From the IMG/VR virus record IMGVR_UViG_3300031687_000102, positions 1-23,516 of that record: DNA of 23,516 nucleotides; one strand, 5' to 3'. Shown piece after piece: positions 2,251 through 20,319 of the stretch (the stretch's first letter is position 1; each line of letters opens with the position of its first letter). The notes under the pieces are model-generated. The model had not been told where the DNA came from. It saw only the letters and a list, made by a program, of their open reading frames with translations, and did no database searches. Source of the DNA: a virus. Both the position numbers and the translations under genes were made by a program.

Positions 2251-3006
2251 TTATTCTCCGATTAAATCTAAAATGTTGTTTATTATAATGACTCCGCGGT
2301 CTTGCGCAGCCTGTGTTTTTGCCGACTCAACTCCTGACTCATTTATAAGATGAGTACAGTCCTTAGTCAGACTATTTTTTACGGCAAAGCCGTGTTGTTC
2401 CAGAACTTCCGCCGCATGAGCCTTGCTGGGATATGAATTGAGCCTACCTGAAATACACACAGTTCCTGTTAATTCTCTCTTTACTACTCTCGTAGCGGAG
2501 AAAGAAAAGGGAAGGTTCTGATTATACTTATTAGGGTAAAATTCTGATTCTAGCCATTGCATTAGGTTGCTTGTAGCCTTCGGGCCGATACCCGCTTCAG
2601 TACAACTTTTCTCTGAGATTTCTTCGAGTGAAGAAATTGTCTCGCATAATTTTTGAGAAGCTGACCGACCGAAAAGTGGAATTGAGAAAGCTGGCAATAA
2701 AGTTTGCAAATCTACTGATTTTGACTTCTCAATCTCATTTGCTAGTTTTACTGCCATTTTCTCTGAGCCTAGTCTTAAGGAAATATCCTCAACGGTTAGC
2801 TCATACAATTCTGGATAGTCTCCGATTTCCAACTTACTAATGCAAGCTGGTCCGAATCCTTTTATTTTGAGTAACTTACCGAAATGTTCCAATTTCTTAG
2901 ACCACTGCGCGGGACACATCTTGTTAAAGCAGTATAGTAGTTCATTAACGAACTCTACATTACCTTCACAGGAAGGACAACTAGCAGGTGGTAAAATTTG
3001 TGTCAT
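2251..3006 (-). CDS. NAD+-dependent DNA ligase, C-terminal part (Zn finger, HhH, BRCT)
   Basis: This 251-residue protein matches the C-terminal half of bacterial LigA as a separate gene. It has a four-cysteine zinc finger (C10, C13, C26, C31, ending CPAQ), then helix-hairpin-helix repeats (about 45-160, including KIKGFGPACISKLEIG and EAGIGPKATSNLMQW), and a BRCT domain (about 178-251, with GTVCISGRL and a KDCTHLI core). It has no adenylation domain, which lies in the gene at 7073-8017. The two products presumably act together to seal nicks. A consensus promoter lies 36 bp upstream, and the HTH repeat gene follows. Phage T5 is recalled to encode a comparable two-subunit NAD+ ligase; physical association here is inferred. 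Confidence 0.88.
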   Translation of the reverse strand: MTQILPPASCPSCEGNVEFVNELLYCFNKMCPAQWSKKLEHFGKLLKIKGFGPACISKLEIGDYPELYELTVEDISLRLGSEKMAVKLANEIEKSKSVDLQTLLPAFSIPLFGRSASQKLCETISSLEEISEKSCTEAGIGPKATSNLMQWLESEFYPNKYNQNLPFSFSATRVVKRELTGTVCISGRLNSYPSKAHAAEVLEQHGFAVKNSLTKDCTHLINESGVESAKTQAAQDRGVIIINNILDLIGE

Positions 3007-3219: not shown

Positions 3220-4135
3220 TTGTTTCTATATCTCTTATAATGCGCTCTGCCATCATCGCATGGGCGGCTTCTAATGGGTGGTCTTTTGCTCCGATTGGCT
3301 TTCCATTATTGCATGCCATATCGTAAAATCCCTGTGACTCTAGAAAAGGTAGTTCTGTAACTATTTGTTTTCTATTCATGTCTAGAGACTCCCACCAGTT
3401 GTTAGTGTTCTCGTATACTTCCCAATCTAAGATTGGTAGTAAAGGTCTGTACTGACCATGAGAGAATAAGTAATGTAGCTGATGTATACCCTGGGCTTCT
3501 AGGAAATATTTGACTGAGAGCATATTCCCAATCGTTAATCTTAGATTCATATGAGCATTTCTAATTACTTTTAGGTATTCTTCTAGGTGTACCTTATCAC
3601 CTGCCACTAGTTGGTTATCCACATAGGGTATGCTCTGAGGCAATGCTTTTAGACTTTTTGGGTCTAATAAGAATTTTGCCCAAGTTCCGATCGTCCAACT
3701 CCAATCAGAGGTTATCTGTGACTTCCTTAGTATTTCATGCCTGTTTATACCAGACCACATACATACTACTAATTGAGGTTTACCGTCTTTATAGGGCTGT
3801 CTTGTTGATTGTATAGTTTGCTGATACTTTCCCTTACTAACGTTGTCCGCCTCAAAATAGCGTTGGTGGAAGTTCCCCTTCTGTGCTAGGGGCTTATTGG
3901 GGTACTCATGCATAATCGCCTTTTGGTTCCTAATGCTAGTACTGTGATGTAACTTGTTTCCTAGAACTGCATTAAATACTGTTCTTTGGATAAAGTCATT
4001 ACCTGCCCCTATCTTTCCTTCGTTCCATTCGTGCATCCCTAGTTCTCTAGCTACTAGATTGCTGAACCGACTAACCAATTTGTCCTTTAGTTCCATGCCA
4101 TTAGTGAAACTACAGCCTGCGAATAATATACTCAA
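3194..4135 (-). CDS. SGNH/GDSL-like hydrolase or acyltransferase
   Basis: The 313-residue product opens with block I of an SGNH fold, ILFAGCSFTNG, where the serine follows GC as in many marine phage proteins of this type. A GAGNDF segment near residue 43 could carry the oxyanion-hole residues, and a C-terminal KDHPLEAAH near 280-290 could supply the catalytic Asp/His. SGNH enzymes remove or transfer acyl groups, usually on glycans. The start is a TTG that overlaps the carbamoyltransferase stop (TTGA); later ATGs would delete block I. Sitting after a carbamoyltransferase and a 2OG oxygenase, it probably belongs to a small-molecule or glycan modification set. The substrate cannot be read from the sequence. 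Confidence 0.65.
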   Translation of the reverse strand: MSILFAGCSFTNGMELKDKLVSRFSNLVARELGMHEWNEGKIGAGNDFIQRTVFNAVLGNKLHHSTSIRNQKAIMHEYPNKPLAQKGNFHQRYFEADNVSKGKYQQTIQSTRQPYKDGKPQLVVCMWSGINRHEILRKSQITSDWSWTIGTWAKFLLDPKSLKALPQSIPYVDNQLVAGDKVHLEEYLKVIRNAHMNLRLTIGNMLSVKYFLEAQGIHQLHYLFSHGQYRPLLPILDWEVYENTNNWWESLDMNRKQIVTELPFLESQGFYDMACNNGKPIGAKDHPLEAAHAMMAERIIRDIETNEFFTKDS

Positions 4136-5517
4136 AATACTTTAACTCCATACATTTTCTGGAAGTCAAGAGCATCTTTCCATGTGTCTACAATAGGTTG
4201 TCCTTTTATATTAAGACTAGTATTTAACAACATTGGTACTCCTGTTTTTTCGTAATATTCCTCAAGAATTGGTCTGAGTATGCTTGTACTGTCGGGCTTA
4301 ACAAGTTGTACCCTGGCACTACCATCTACATGGGTCACGCTAGAATAGTCATGTTTAGCTTGAGCAGTATACTGCATATACTCATTCATCTGTCCATCAA
4401 AATAATCGGTTGAGAACTCTGACAGGATTGCTGGAGCGAAGGGTCTAAAGTTTTGTCGCCTTTTAATGCGATTGACTGTAGATTTAATATCATAACGAAC
4501 GTCACCAAGCAAACTCCTGTTGCCCAATGCACGCGGTCCAAATTCTGCCTTTCCATTTGCGACCCCTGCTATTTTATTTTTTACTATATGTTCTGCTATT
4601 ACTCGTGGATTCGGATAAGCATCTATGTCCGTGCCACAGAATATATTGAAATCACACTTGCGTTTAGCATAACCTAATGCCGCACCTAAACTACTACCAG
4701 CATCGCCAGGGTTAGGATAAATCCAAACATTGTCGAAGTGTTGATGTAGTATCTTACTATTAGCTACGCAGTTAAGTGCGACCCCACCTGCATAGCACAA
4801 ATTCTTTCCCCAGCCGGCAGCTAAGCCTACATACTTTGAAACCTCATGTTCAATATGTAACTGGGCACTTGCGGCAATATCCTCTGGGGAACTGCCTTTA
4901 AAATCTTCTAAGGCAAACCCTTTATGCCAATTTGCCCAATCGTTGAAACAATACTTCATGTCAACACTAGGCTCTCCATATGCCGCCATCCCCATAGTTA
5001 TATACTCATCTTCGTTTGGCTTCAAACCAATACGCTTCGTAATAGCACTATAGAACAGGCCGAGGCTTGTTGGATATAATTTTTCATAAACTTTTTTCAA
5101 TCTTTTTGAAATAGGATCTACCGTCCAAATACTGATAGTGTCCCACTCTCCAATCGCATCGATCACGAGACATACTACATCCTTATCAAAAGGTGATGTG
5201 TAATACGCTCCTGCTGCGTGGCTTTCGTGATGTTTTAAGTGATAATCACAACTATCGAAAATTGTTGTCGACACAGGAGATTGACCAAACTTGGCTCGTC
5301 TTCTGTTCTTCAATGGTACGTCCTCATGGAAAACCGATACGTCTGCGGGAACATCACGCATAATCTTTGGGTTGGTTTTGTCGTTCTTCTTTCTTGTTAT
5401 TCTCTCGGCATGTTTAGCCCATATAACAGTCGCATTACAACTCGTATCGTCAGGCACAGAGACTAATGATACACTAGCATCATGGAAGCCTTCTGATATT
5501 CCTTTAATTAACGGCAT
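4132..5517 (-). CDS. NodU/CmcH-family O-carbamoyltransferase
   Basis: Enzymes of this family make carbamoyl-adenylate from carbamoyl phosphate and ATP and transfer the carbamoyl group to a hydroxyl. The 461-residue protein has the Kae1-like metal site HHESHA (96-101), a glycine-rich nucleotide-binding stretch AGGVALNCVANSKI (243-256) and the C-terminal family signature GKAEFGPRALGNRSLLGD (322-339). It is shorter than the usual ~550-600 residues. I use the ATG at 5517 (MPLIKG), with AAAGGG upstream; an earlier in-frame TTG gives six extra residues. It overlaps the upstream 2OG oxygenase by 10 nt and the downstream SGNH gene by 4 nt. Substrates could be sugars, small molecules, or hydroxymethylated bases in DNA, since phage members of this family have been reported to act on 5-hydroxymethylcytosine. 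Confidence 0.9.
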   Translation of the reverse strand: MPLIKGISEGFHDASVSLVSVPDDTSCNATVIWAKHAERITRKKNDKTNPKIMRDVPADVSVFHEDVPLKNRRRAKFGQSPVSTTIFDSCDYHLKHHESHAAGAYYTSPFDKDVVCLVIDAIGEWDTISIWTVDPISKRLKKVYEKLYPTSLGLFYSAITKRIGLKPNEDEYITMGMAAYGEPSVDMKYCFNDWANWHKGFALEDFKGSSPEDIAASAQLHIEHEVSKYVGLAAGWGKNLCYAGGVALNCVANSKILHQHFDNVWIYPNPGDAGSSLGAALGYAKRKCDFNIFCGTDIDAYPNPRVIAEHIVKNKIAGVANGKAEFGPRALGNRSLLGDVRYDIKSTVNRIKRRQNFRPFAPAILSEFSTDYFDGQMNEYMQYTAQAKHDYSSVTHVDGSARVQLVKPDSTSILRPILEEYYEKTGVPMLLNTSLNIKGQPIVDTWKDALDFQKMYGVKVF

Positions 5518-6119
5518 CTGTTGCCCTTTCTCCAATAAGTTAAATTGTACTTAGTTCCTTTCGTAACTATAGCGCCTCGATGTAGCTGTGCTGAAGGGAA
5601 TATGATTGCGGTACCCGCTCTGGGTTGCCACTTACCTATACCTTCGAGTTCAAACTCACCACCGTCGAAGTCGTCATTCAAAAAGATACTTACACTAATT
5701 CTATTAGCAAGTGTCCTTTTGAATAAATCTTCTACCGATTCATCCTCGTCTCTGTGCCAGCTGAGCTCATAGCCCTTGTGGTACTCATTCATAAATACGT
5801 TACTCTTTTCGTCTAATTCAAAATTGTAGGTAGCTTTGTTAAATTCAAGAATAGCATCATCCAGTTTCTGCCAGGAAGCTGATAGAGGTTCTGCCCGATA
5901 CATCAAATTGTAACTGTCGGTGAAGGTTGCAATGTTTCGTTTTTGCACTCCTGTTTTCCAACCATTGTATGTACCCGCTGGGACTTGAGTTAAGTTCCAC
6001 TCCTGCGCTGCCTCTATAGTTCTCTCGCACCATTCTTTACCCCAGAAATCTTCTAGTATAGCAAAGTGTGTAAATCCTACTTTATTTATTCGCATCAACG
6101 GGGAACTTTGGTAAGTCAT
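5508..6119 (-). CDS. Fe(II)/2-oxoglutarate dioxygenase, prolyl-4-hydroxylase-like
   Basis: This 203-residue double-stranded beta-helix oxygenase has an iron-binding HxD in LSWHRDED (H122, D124), the distal histidine in AQLHRGA (H180) and a basic 2OG-binding residue at K190 or R197. FLNDDFDGGEFEL (146-158) is typical of the P4H-type core. Such enzymes hydroxylate a substrate at the cost of O2 and 2-oxoglutarate. It is coupled to the carbamoyltransferase by a 10-nt overlap, so its hydroxylated product may be the carbamoyl acceptor; that is inference. The start is uncertain: the ATG at 6119 has no clear ribosome binding site, and a second ATG at 6095 (MRINK) is equally possible and would reduce overlap with the preceding small frame. 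Confidence 0.85.
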   Translation of the reverse strand: MTYQSSPLMRINKVGFTHFAILEDFWGKEWCERTIEAAQEWNLTQVPAGTYNGWKTGVQKRNIATFTDSYNLMYRAEPLSASWQKLDDAILEFNKATYNFELDEKSNVFMNEYHKGYELSWHRDEDESVEDLFKRTLANRISVSIFLNDDFDGGEFELEGIGKWQPRAGTAIIFPSAQLHRGAIVTKGTKYNLTYWRKGNRCR

Positions 6120-6928: not shown

Positions 6929-7076
6929 CTAATAAATCCTCAAAGTAATCCGCATCTTCCATTTCTTCAATCATATCCCTAAAGAACTCAATGTCTGGAA
7001 TCTTATGACCGAAAGGTATTTTTGTAACATACACTCTGTATGCCTGTTCTAATTGTGTTTCTAAGTATAAAATCAA
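6888..7076 (-). CDS. Small acidic hypothetical protein (TTG start)
   Basis: This 62-residue protein starts at a TTG that overlaps the ligase stop codon (TTGA). The TTG is supported by GAGGAG six bases upstream, within the end of the ligase gene; the only later ATG would leave a short stub. The middle is strongly acidic (DIEFFRDMIEEMEDADYFED) and probably helical. No family is recognised. Its acidity and its place directly after the ligase catalytic gene would allow a role as an inhibitor or adaptor, but that is speculation. Confidence 0.65.
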   Translation of the reverse strand: MILYLETQLEQAYRVYVTKIPFGHKIPDIEFFRDMIEEMEDADYFEDLLDEWRGLEQQQSTH

Positions 7077-8017
7077 TCTACTCTCCTCACTATTTTGGGA
7101 ATTATCTCCCCACTTCTAATAACTTCTACACTACAACCAATCTCTAGCATCATCTCGTCAATGAAACCAATGTTGTGTAAGGTAGCCCTCGAGATGTTAG
7201 CGCCGTTGATGTTGATAGGTTCTAGTATGCCAATAGGAGCAATTACTCCTGACTTACCAGTATTCCACTCTACATCTAGTAGTTTTGTAACTACTCCAGC
7301 CTCTCTAGTCTTATAAGCATAAGCTCCCCTAGGGTGGTGTGAAGTAAATCCATACTTGTCGAAAGCACTATATCTGTCTACTCGGAATACAACTCCATCG
7401 TTTGGGAACTCATTCCAGTCAGACTCAGATATAACTTTAAACCAATTCTTAAGTAAGTTCATATCCTCTAACCATCGAGCCCCTAAGGGATTCTGTAGTC
7501 CATATGCAATAAAGGTTATGTCTCTCTTTTTAAACTCTGCTACATCTTTGAGATTGAGTGCACCTGCCGCATAGTTCCTAGAGTTAGGAATTTCTTTGGG
7601 GGCTACTACTTCTCCTGTAATCTGTCTAACACCTGAGAACAGTTGTTTGTCTAGTACTGGTGGTACTATATGTCTCATTTTATCACTAATGTCAAGACCA
7701 GCTTTGCCGTCACCTCTAGTTAGGGCTTGATGGAAGAAACCATCTACATAAGTTAAAGAGACAGCTGCGCCGTCAAGCTTAGTAGTAGTAACTACAGCAT
7801 CTTTGCCATAATCTGGAGCTTTATCTTCGTTTGCGAAGACTTTTTGGAGTGAATACATTGGGAAGGGGTGCTTATAACGACTGTCAGTAGCTGAACCCAC
7901 ATCATCTGTATTTATATTGTCTACAAGGCGGTCGTATACTTCATCTGGAATCAAAGGGCGTCCATTGAAATATGCATCGCGGCACTTGCCTAAAAATGTT
8001 CTTATATCTTTATTCAT
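7073..8017 (-). CDS. NAD+-dependent DNA ligase, catalytic part (adenylation + OB)
   Basis: This 314-residue protein corresponds to the N-terminal half of LigA. It has a reduced Ia-like region (PLIPDEVYDRL, 21-31), the adenylated lysine in TTTKLDG (K80), TRGDGKAGLD, and an OB-fold segment with EWNTGKSGVIAPI. It ends at EIIPKIVRRVD, exactly where a full ligase would continue into the zinc finger found in the gene at 2251-3006. Nick sealing probably needs both products. The ATG at 8017 lies 7 nt after the -10 of promoter P2, so the mRNA should have no leader. A longer frame from a TTG at 8053 is only the translated -35 box and is rejected. Confidence 0.88.
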   Translation of the reverse strand: MNKDIRTFLGKCRDAYFNGRPLIPDEVYDRLVDNINTDDVGSATDSRYKHPFPMYSLQKVFANEDKAPDYGKDAVVTTTKLDGAAVSLTYVDGFFHQALTRGDGKAGLDISDKMRHIVPPVLDKQLFSGVRQITGEVVAPKEIPNSRNYAAGALNLKDVAEFKKRDITFIAYGLQNPLGARWLEDMNLLKNWFKVISESDWNEFPNDGVVFRVDRYSAFDKYGFTSHHPRGAYAYKTREAGVVTKLLDVEWNTGKSGVIAPIGILEPININGANISRATLHNIGFIDEMMLEIGCSVEVIRSGEIIPKIVRRVD

Positions 8018-8024
8018 ATTATAT

Positions 8025-8064
8025 ATTATACTTGGATTTTGGGTTGATGTCAAGAACTATTTTT
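8025..8064 (-). promoter_or_regulatory. Promoter P2 (ligase operon), predicted leaderless
   Basis: TTGACA (8048-8053), 17 bp and TATAAT (8025-8030), with AAAAATAGTTC next to the -35. The A-run begins 2 nt after the 3' end of tRNA-Arg. Only 7 nt separate the -10 from the ligase ATG, so transcription should begin at or one base before the A of the start codon. Confidence 0.9.
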
Positions 8065-8065
8065 C

Positions 8066-8142
8066 TGGTGTCCCACGCAAGACTTGAACTTGCAACCTAC
8101 GGCTTAGAAGGCCGTTGCTCTATCCAGTTGAGCTAGCAGGAC
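8066..8142 (-). tRNA. tRNA-Arg (TCT)
   Basis: A full cloverleaf with acceptor GTCCTGC / GTGGGAC, D-arm AGCTCAACTGGATAGAGC, anticodon loop CTTCTAA, T-loop GTTCAAG and templated CCA at 8066-8068. It reads AGA, a common arginine codon in AT-rich phage genes. It is separated from tRNA-His by an 80-nt gap that holds a hairpin. Confidence 0.95.
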
Positions 8143-8165
8143 TATTAAGAGAATTGTATAAATTT

Positions 8166-8200
8166 GTTTCATAAAATGTACATTGTAAACTTTATGAAAC
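8166..8200. repeat. Perfect 10-bp inverted repeat between tRNA-His and tRNA-Arg
   Basis: GTTTCATAAA (8166-8175) and TTTATGAAAC (8191-8200) pair around a 15-nt loop that contains the palindrome AATGTACATT at its edge. No T-run follows on the minus strand, so it is not a standard terminator. It may guide processing of the tRNA transcript or be the scar of a lost tRNA. Confidence 0.7.
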
Positions 8201-8222
8201 ATATCTCATGAATTATCAAAAT

Positions 8223-8298
8223 TGGGGTGAGCAATGGGGGTCGAACCCACAACCACTGGCTCCACAAGCCAGGGCTCTACCATTGAGCTATACTCACC
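8223..8298 (-). tRNA. tRNA-His (GTG)
   Basis: The anticodon stem-loop is CTGGC TTGTGGA GCCAG. The 5' end supplies the extra G(-1) opposite C73, the identity mark of tRNA-His. Acceptor pairs G1-C72 to A7-T66 are intact (one G-T), the T-loop is GTTCGAC, and CCA is templated. Confidence 0.95.
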
Positions 8299-8299
8299 A

Positions 8300-8374
8300 T
8301 GGCGGTCTGTAAGGGAATCGAACCCTTATATCAGGATAGACAATCCCGCATAATAACCATTATATTAACAAACC
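8300..8374 (-). tRNA. tRNA-Asp (GTC)
   Basis: Acceptor GGTTTGT / ACAGACC with discriminator G73 and templated CCA; anticodon loop TTGTCTA; T-loop GTTCGAT. The D-arm is unusually AT-rich. One base separates it from tRNA-His, implying a joint precursor. Confidence 0.92.
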
Positions 8375-8382
8375 ATTAAATT

Positions 8383-8457
8383 TGGTACCCCGCAGGAGAC
8401 TTGAACTCCTATTACTAGGATGAAAACCTAGTGTCCTAACCTTTAGACGAACGGGGC
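8383..8457 (-). tRNA. tRNA-Glu (TTC)
   Basis: Acceptor GCCCCGT / GCGGGGT (G1-T72 wobble), anticodon loop TTTTCAT between CTAGG and CCTAG, T-loop GTTCAAG, templated CCA. An 8-nt spacer separates it from tRNA-Asp. Confidence 0.94.
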
Positions 8458-8465
8458 ATTTCAGT

Positions 8466-8556
8466 TGGCGGAAGATGAAGGATTCGAACCTTCGATGGGG
8501 GTGAACCCCATACTCCCTTAGCAGGGGAGCGCTTTAGACCACTCAGCCAATCTTCC
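8466..8556 (-). tRNA. tRNA-Ser (GCT)
   Basis: A class II tRNA of 91 nt with acceptor GGAAGAT / ATCTTCC, discriminator G, templated CCA, anticodon loop CTGCTAA between CTCCC and GGGAG, and a long variable arm. Its first base is the last base of the TAG stop of the upstream gene, so processing of the tRNA 5' end would cut that mRNA at its stop codon. Confidence 0.95.
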
Positions 8557-9125
8557 TATCTTGTTATTCTAGACTCGTAACTGGCTTCGTCTTCGTCCCA
8601 CCAGTAGGGTTTGTCTCTGTACTTCCACTCGGCAAAGGTTGCTTTGTCTTTGTGGTAGAATCTTCTATAGGCTTCGACAACATTATCTCCTTTGAGTTCA
8701 TCGGGCATAGCGGTGGCAAAAGGTGTGAGCCCGGTGCGTGGTAGCTCGATGTCTGGTAATTTAAGTATGACCTCGGACAAGCTTTTATGTGTCTTGCCGT
8801 AACGGTAGGTATATTCTTCTCCGAGGGCAAGGCTGTATACGTAAAGCCATTCATAATTATCAAGACTGGTACGAGCCCAGATGCTACAAGGGTGATTATA
8901 CATAGTAGGCAGGTAGGGGAAATCCCTTGGCTCATTTTGCTTCTGAGTAGAGACTTTAGCCCACTCGTCTGATGTAAGTTTTTGGGGTGCGTATCCCACA
9001 TATTTTGTAATCCAATGTGTTGTACATAGCATCTGTGCAGCTTCTAGCGGCATCTTAACTATGTGCTTGTCTACATGTGCTTCTGCACACGCGTCTATGT
9101 TTTCGTCTAGTATAAAAATATTCAT
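8556..9125 (-). CDS. Conserved phage protein with DKHxVKM motif, unknown function
   Basis: The 189-residue protein has the N-terminal pattern CAEAHVDKHIVKMPLEAAQM (13-32), then NHPCSIWART, a YTYRYGKTHKS segment and PFATAMPDELK, and ends in aromatic residues (KYRDKPYWW). Proteins of this shape are widespread in marine phages and some bacteria, from memory, and lack a settled function; conserved His, Lys and Glu suggest an enzyme. The ATG at 9125 lies 7 nt after the -10 of P3, predicting a leaderless message. The stop overlaps the first base of tRNA-Ser, so this mRNA and the tRNA precursor are one transcript. Confidence 0.85.
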   Translation of the reverse strand: MNIFILDENIDACAEAHVDKHIVKMPLEAAQMLCTTHWITKYVGYAPQKLTSDEWAKVSTQKQNEPRDFPYLPTMYNHPCSIWARTSLDNYEWLYVYSLALGEEYTYRYGKTHKSLSEVILKLPDIELPRTGLTPFATAMPDELKGDNVVEAYRRFYHKDKATFAEWKYRDKPYWWDEDEASYESRITR

Positions 9126-13776: not shown

Positions 13777-13992
13777 CTATCCGCCTTTTGCTAACTCATC
13801 AATTACGTCAAGTCCACCTTCTATCTTAGCTAGGTATTCTTTCTGTCTCTGAAGTTGTCCTTCAAGCACAGTTATCTGTTGTTCAATTTCTACCTGTTGC
13901 TGTATAAGGTTATTCTTCAATACTTGTGAGTGTGTTAATGTATCCATATTTTCTCCAAGCACACCAATTAAATCTTCTAAACCTTGTACCAT
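13777..13992 (-). CDS. Coiled-coil protein, 71 residues
   Basis: After a short N-terminal helix, residues 25-60 (LKNNLIQQQVEIEQQITVLE onward to LAKIEGG) form an obvious heptad-rich coiled coil with many Gln and Glu. The start overlaps the stop of the preceding gene by one base (TGATG-type junction), and the next gene begins one base after its stop. A structural or scaffolding role is possible; no family is recognised. Confidence 0.75.
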   Translation of the reverse strand: MVQGLEDLIGVLGENMDTLTHSQVLKNNLIQQQVEIEQQITVLEGQLQRQKEYLAKIEGGLDVIDELAKGG

Positions 13993-14219
13993 CAGTCATC
14001 TCCATTGAGTCTGTAGGCGTTTAAAAGCTGTGTGCTACCGTTTTTCTTAATCATTCGTAAATTTCTGCGAAGATGAGACTTATCCTTAGCCTTGTTTAAC
14101 CATGCTAATTTCTTATCGTCGTCCCAATCTGCTGGCATAGTTACTCTCATACCATCAATTTCGTACGCACGAACGCCTTCTTCTTCTACAATGTTCTCTC
14201 TAATGGTCTCTTTTGCCAT
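13992..14219 (-). CDS. Hypothetical protein, 75 residues
   Basis: The product begins MAKETIRENIVEEEGVRAYE, has VTMPADWDDDKKLAWLNKAK (27-46) and a basic RRNLRMIKK segment. It is the first gene after the structured leader at 14223-14428, with AGGAGAAG 5-8 nt before the ATG, so its translation may be controlled by that leader. I do not recognise the family. Confidence 0.75.
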   Translation of the reverse strand: MAKETIRENIVEEEGVRAYEIDGMRVTMPADWDDDKKLAWLNKAKDKSHLRRNLRMIKKNGSTQLLNAYRLNGDD

Positions 14220-14222
14220 TAT

Positions 14223-14470
14223 GCTTCTCCTAAAAGAAAGAAACTGACACTCAATCCTCTAGGAACCCGCGATGGGAGCCTTGGCGAGGCAGGTACATAT
14301 GGGTAAGTCATTAGCCTTATACTGTTTTTAGTGTGTTACTAACTTATTTAGCGTTTACACGCAAAGTATATATTAAAGCTGTGTATTCCTACTCTTCTGT
14401 TCACTTGTCCTGAGTGTCAGTCTCTTAAACTGCTTAAGCTATAATTTTATTTATAACTTTATTTTTTTAT
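14223..14470 (-). ncRNA. Structured 5' leader or non-coding RNA
   Basis: About 250 nt without a gene follow promoter P5. On the RNA, GAGACTGACACTCA (complement of 14411-14424) pairs with TGAGTGTCAGTTTC (complement of 14239-14252) as an unbroken 14-bp stem with one G-U, enclosing about 158 nt. Inside are short hairpins: GCGT-gtaa-ACGC, TTAGT-aacac-ACTAA, TAAG...CTTA, AGGC...GCCT and CCC...GGG. A further hairpin CTTAA...TTAAG precedes the stem. The closing stem ends about 10 nt before the ribosome binding site of the next gene. It does not match tmRNA, 6S, RNase P or a riboswitch I know. It could be a cis-regulator or a processed small RNA. Confidence 0.65.
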
Positions 14471-20280: not shown

Positions 20281-20319
20281 ATTATAACAAATTTTAAGAT
20301 TGATGTCAAGAACTATTTT
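20281..20319 (-). promoter_or_regulatory. Promoter P6 (Hsp20/lysis block)
   Basis: TTGACA (20304-20309), 17 bp, TATAAT's complement at 20281-20286, with AAAATAGTTC next to the -35, touching the stop codon of the small membrane-protein gene. It drives Hsp20, lysis genes and the following modification genes. Confidence 0.9.

Follow-up and report, generated by a model that had tools for sequence, protein, structure and literature searches.

A candidate family of cis-acting structured leader RNAs in T5-related marine phages

The leader of a small phage operon is best read as a member of a new family of structured leader RNAs, proposed to act in cis in T5-related marine phages. It lies on the minus strand of a viral sequence of 23,516 nucleotides, the whole stretch of DNA analyzed here and called the window below. 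Comparison with homologues shows structural selection on the RNA, its fold being maintained via compensatory mutations, and this conservation of structure is the decisive evidence for the leader. The homologues share a common architecture: a closing stem (P1), an arm (P1b-P2-P3) with P4, a probable pseudoknot, at its tip, the hairpin P5, and unpaired motifs that are conserved in sequence. The family is well supported and absent from Rfam, and the RNA is probably a built-in switch for the gene cluster downstream.

The order on the minus strand is a promoter (14506-14478), a 250-nt leader (read from 14471 to 14220) and the ATG at 14219 of a gene for a 75-aa protein. The sequence-only reading had placed the leader after a promoter, and by direct reading this is a flawless sigma-70 promoter, TTGACA-N17-TATAAT, matching 12/12 consensus bases. 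Identical hexamers and the 17-nt spacer were present in 15/15 examined leaders of groups 1 and 2 (defined below). The interval from promoter to P1 holds an AU-rich 5' hairpin (P0, 14459-14436, 9 bp in the window), which likewise occupies the equivalent position in 15/15 group 1-2 leaders examined, with varying stem sequences. The Shine-Dalgarno sequence of the 75-aa gene, AGGAG, is read directly at 14231-14227. The minus strand of the window carries four further 12/12 sigma-70 promoters with 17-nt spacers (20309-20281, 11119-11091, 9161-9133, and 8053-8025); their distances to the start codon are too short for a similar leader, with the exception of about 90 nt at 20309.

P1 is defined by pairing, fold, and covariation. 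Its core joins GAGACUGACACUCA (14424-14411) to UGAGUGUCAGUUUC (14253-14240) over 14 bp including one G.U, and the stem can lengthen to 16 bp (14426-14411 with 14253-14238). The arms enclose 157 nt, and P1 ends 6 nt from the Shine-Dalgarno sequence, so that the earlier description of two segments pairing over 14 bp around about 158 nt, close to the ribosome binding site, holds. We folded the stem-enclosed stretch of 194 nt and obtained -52.4 kcal/mol for the minus strand, compared with -39.5 +/- 3.8 for 200 shuffled sequences, none of which folded as well (z -3.36). The plus strand folds more weakly (z -1.6), and an RNA from that strand was rejected for this reason. The same earlier description counted five or more small hairpins within the stem; the comparative structure instead has one long arm (P1b-P2-P3-P4) and hairpin P5.

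Relatives were gathered in IMG/VR through homologues of the 75-aa protein, present at 47 loci, and then with a DNA pattern built on the best-conserved stretch. The RNA, about 160-190 nt long, occurs on about 40 IMG/VR contigs in 26 distinct versions, which fall into three deep groups and one outlier. Group 1 (the window, L003, L006, L008, L009, L012, L023, L029, L030, L034, L041, and L147) has the order promoter, P0 hairpin, RNA, gene. Group 2 (L013, L014, L043, and L046) has the same order, with a gene that lacks a Shine-Dalgarno sequence; in L013, L043, and L046 the start codon follows P1 by 12-14 nt, with a U-rich stretch between. In group 3 (L015, L026, L157, L161-L165, and L174) an ORF of about 50 aa with a CxC...C motif stands between promoter and RNA, and its stop codon touches P1. 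In L163 and L174, one or two genes separate the 75-aa gene from the RNA, a lipoprotein-like ORF and an IscU-like gene named from its sequence by eye. The outlier, L055, was found by our model R2 (E 9e-6) directly before a diverged copy of the 75-aa gene. Model R1 finds groups 2 and 3 at E 5e-14 to 7e-5. These home-made covariance models, built from part of the groups, recover members outside their own set; their E-values are rough. Every example occupies a single niche, as a rule with 12-20 nt separating it from the next start codon, and the small operon that follows is always the same one, headed by the 75-aa protein gene.

Several side observations concern these loci. The upstream ORF, 45-50 aa with a CxCG...C motif, was located in the promoter-RNA interval at L015:1024-1176, L157:2174-2326, L161:2163-2309, L162:2129-2281, and L055:3440-3577. 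The promoter before it is consensus-perfect in group 3 and L055, and the ORF stop codon abuts P1 or comes very close to it, which would place the P1 5' arm beneath a terminating ribosome. The IscU-like gene (iron-sulphur scaffold, by eye) lies at L174:1901-2287 and L166:128-514, followed by a small lipoprotein-like ORF, in one phage lineage. The records L168-L173 hold distant, shorter relatives of the 75-aa gene, in which our model found no RNA; they lie downstream of a gene resembling, by eye, window 8556-9125.

Among 50 related phage records, convincing RNAs occur only alongside the 75-aa gene (G000, G007, and G008). The model matched nothing in four annotated phages, which is weak evidence because these phages also have no relative of the 75-aa protein. 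BLASTN of the leader against phage isolates gave chance matches only, mostly AT-rich, and a viral scan with a long-range DNA pattern returned the known niche together with chance matches (L179, L182, L184, and L188) that the model rejected. The weak model matches L088 and L085 look like coding sequence and were rejected as well. Absence from bacterial genomes is judged solely from the search of genome contigs with the 75-aa protein.

Covariation in relatives was the refutation check proposed with the first reading, and it is strong. A MAFFT alignment of the 12 group 1 RNAs, fitted to no structure, was analyzed with RNAalifold, which returned P1, P1b, P2, P3, P5, and the GUGU/ACAC helix, with compensatory changes in 19 of 35 pairs. 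The named structure scored a covariation of 0.510 on this unfitted alignment, against 0.238 for shuffled and at most 0.163 for slid structures. Across 25 distinct RNAs from all three groups, compensatory two-sided changes affect 29 of the 39 pairs, 89.6% of cells are paired, and covariation reaches 0.571 (0.194 shuffled, at most 0.166 slid), in an alignment that leans towards the model because it was fitted to the model structure. We also used a tree-aware null in which Fitch substitutions were re-dealt along a FastTree tree in 400 simulations, a simplified test that is R-scape-like and not R-scape itself. Here 16/39 structure pairs reached E<=0.05, the top ten of 13,366 column pairs all lay within the structure, and so did the top five column pairs of the unfitted alignment. 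A functionless chance fold or compositional artefact is therefore extremely improbable: the leader is AT-rich and some fold strength is expected by chance, but the compensatory changes stand far above the shuffled, slid, and tree-aware nulls. Covariation supports the earlier suggestion of a regulator or a processed RNA.

Inside P1, the 5' arm is followed by an unpaired conserved junction strand, GGACAAGUGA (14410-14401), whose AAGUGA is almost invariant in the alignments. The short helix P1b, proposed by RNAalifold, pairs ACA (14400-14398) with UGU (14297-14295); its variants ACA/UGU, ACG/CGU, ACU/AGU, and ACU/GGU give E=0.0001 in the tree-aware test. P2 (GUAGG, 14392-14388, with CUUAC, 14307-14303) and P3 (AGCUUU, 14380-14375, with AAGGCU, 14318-14313) are both supported by covariation. 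The arm is capped by P4 (14365-14333), the most conserved sequence of the RNA (GUGURAACGCUANNNAAGUNANUAACAC). Within it, helix S2 (GUGU, 14360-14357, with ACAC, 14336-14333) shows a GC to CG double change at pair 95-118 in 7 of 25 RNAs (E=0.0005), and it crosses S1 (14365-14361 with 14352-14347; AGC/GCU and longer variants). For S1 the model alignment gives no significant covariation. This helix was recognized solely by inspecting variants, so an H-type pseudoknot is probable here but unproven. The 3' strand of P1b continues into the conserved junction strand ACCUG, the two together spanning 14297-14290 (alignments, RNAalifold). Hairpin P5 (CCUC...GAGG, 14289-14256) is supported by alignments, RNAalifold, and covariation. 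Three stretches are conserved without being paired: AAGUGA, the ACCUG strand, and the P4 strand RAACGC...AGUNANUAA.

P5 carries in the window an inserted stem-loop, GGCUCCCAUCGCGGGUUCC (14280-14262), that only some relatives share. The insert is almost identical in four RNAs (window, L008, L029, and L147) and has no counterpart in close relatives, a distribution like that of a mobile or exchanged hairpin. Two further pairings were considered and dropped: sequestration of the Shine-Dalgarno sequence by the P1 5' arm is possible by eye in L006 and not in the window, L003, or L009, and pairing of an upstream GCAG with a junction CUGC is not conserved in L003, L023, and L012.

That no known class would be recognized in this leader also stood. 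Rfam 15 found the five tRNAs of the window at the gathering cut-off and nothing else, with families such as riboswitches, 6S, tmRNA, RNase P, group I introns, ribozymes, phi29 pRNA, manA, wcaG, PhotoRC, and GOLLD covered and the family gathering cut-off as criterion. In the leader itself, cmscan gave three chance matches at E<=10, far under the cut-off, and at seven loci carrying other members, including divergent relatives, it gave at E<=5 a tRNA and one chance match elsewhere. ARAGORN found no tRNA-like domain in the leader and located only the five tRNAs at 8066-8556. For uncultured T5-related marine phages, the literature search yielded nothing on an RNA of this type. The family offers a defined target for a ligand or partner search, about 190 nt long with a ready model and 26 variants.

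The 3' end bears on how the RNA might work. A U-tract, UUUCUUUU (14239-14232), abuts P1, and the outermost P1 pairs overlap it. Of 25 members, 24 have such a tract after P1, L055 being the one without; the U content past P1 is 5.8 per 10 nt in the 25 members versus 2.4 at a similar position before 36 other window genes. The tract is retained even with a longer distance to the next start codon, as in L163 and L174. The P1 3' arm can in addition form a local hairpin of 5-7 bp flush with the U-tract in most of group 1 and most listed members of group 3, with L009 (weak) and L163 (absent) as exceptions. Its mean score over all members is 9.9 versus 6.9 in shuffles, and no shuffle set reaches it, an excess that may be partly due to purine/pyrimidine ordering.

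We lean modestly towards a new leader RNA family that would act in cis, in the manner of an attenuator, on an early-type operon starting with the 75-aa protein. P1 with its adjoining U-tract would then be a conditional transcription terminator, and in groups 1 and 3 the small local hairpin from the P1 3' arm would compete with it. Folding of the junction/P4 core might be helped or blocked by some protein or small molecule, or in group 3 the input might come from a ribosome finishing the upstream ORF; core folding would decide whether RNA polymerase enters the operon. Regulation in cis of any sort is moderately likely. The RNA lies between the flawless host-type promoter and the operon, and it keeps this niche even though group 3 has acquired an ORF upstream of it and L163 and L174 have acquired genes downstream of it; the position is therefore a property of the leader and not of one gene. 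That the RNA persists at the operon head through such turnover of its neighbors is an argument that it is important in its own right. Tight spacing to the start codon is, however, unremarkable in compact phage genomes. The attenuation step in particular is a tentative proposal, the leading guess because U-tract and local hairpin together have the anatomy of a conditional terminator. Against it, a 160-nt loop is atypical for a terminator stem, group 2 (L013, L043, and L046) and L055 have no notable competing hairpin, and U-rich sequence upstream of a start codon could be a site for ribosomal protein S1.

Other readings share parts of this evidence. The RNA could be a translational operator, bound by the basic 75-aa protein or another phage factor that hinders or aids ribosome binding. 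Ribosomal-protein leaders and T4 gp32 are examples of such operators, and the T4 gene 32 leader also bears a pseudoknot. The distance from the end of P1 to the start codon is 12-20 nt in almost every member, the 75-aa gene is the constant neighbor, and its product has a conserved basic stretch, LRRNLKMIKK. Yet the Shine-Dalgarno sequence lies outside P1 and is missing from group 2 genes, the distant gene copies in L168-L173 come without the RNA, other genes separate the two in L163 and L174, and the protein has no structure or RNA-binding match, which makes this reading rather unlikely. For T4 gene 32, autogenous repression is described in PMC535899. The likeness is a structured leader, with a pseudoknot that is probable here, before a phage gene; structure and gene differ, and binding of the 75-aa protein to the leader is only putative.

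Quite unlikely, too, is a stand-alone, trans-acting stable RNA of about 160-250 nt that would arise where transcription terminates at the U-tract or the transcript is processed at P1, with the mRNA a read-through by-product. Paired 5' and 3' ends, a consensus-perfect promoter close upstream, and a U-tract kept though the downstream gene differs would suit it, but the RNA is always tied to the same operon, never appears apart from it in the 50 related phage records or the four annotated phages, and in group 3 is separated from the promoter by an ORF. An improbable reading, by analogy, is a cis-acting antiterminator that would bind RNA polymerase as nascent RNA and confer resistance to downstream terminators. 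Its precedent, the HK022 putRNA, has 73 nt in two stem-loops, binds the zinc-binding domain of the RNA polymerase beta' subunit, suppresses terminators, and needs no protein (PMC9378689). Like putL/putR, untranslated cis-acting folded RNAs shortly past an early phage promoter (PMC9378689), our RNA is promoter-proximal and precedes an early-type operon. The leader, in contrast, has 160-190 nt, a closing stem, a three-way junction, and a probable pseudoknot, not two stem-loops of about 73 nt, and no dense terminator array was seen in the operon.

Returning to the attenuator-type leader, a special form of it is possible rather than probable: a ligand- or protein-sensing phage riboregulator, whose junction and pseudoknot would form the aptamer and whose closing stem would double as conditional terminator. 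If so, T5-related marine phages would gate an early operon by host state. As in riboswitches, a conserved structured domain lies in an mRNA leader, and the leader resembles orphan riboswitch candidates in its conserved unpaired nucleotides within a multi-helix junction and pseudoknot and in its terminator-like 3' end before an operon; it differs in being limited to one phage lineage and in downstream genes that give no metabolic hint. T4-like cyanophages carry the manA and wcaG RNAs (RF01745 and RF01761) close to host-metabolism genes, and PhotoRC-II (RF01717) precedes psbA-type genes (PMC2864571). These too are structured candidate cis-regulatory RNAs from marine metagenomes and phages found through covariation (PMC2864571), whereas our leader has no covariance-model match to them and precedes an orphan gene in T5-related phages.

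The first gene after the RNA (13992-14219, minus strand) has no assigned function. Its 75-aa product matched no family in Pfam, PHROG, or PDB and has no relative among phage isolates or genome contigs, and its AlphaFold model is poor (pLDDT 55.8) and inadequate for a fold search; the RNA gives a handle on this otherwise featureless protein. A DnaB-type helicase, a D2-like protein, and a split NAD ligase in the window point to a T5-related phage. The window also shows, at 2251-3006, 7073-8053, 4132-5535, and 8066-8556, the split NAD-dependent DNA ligase, a carbamoyltransferase, and the five tRNAs.
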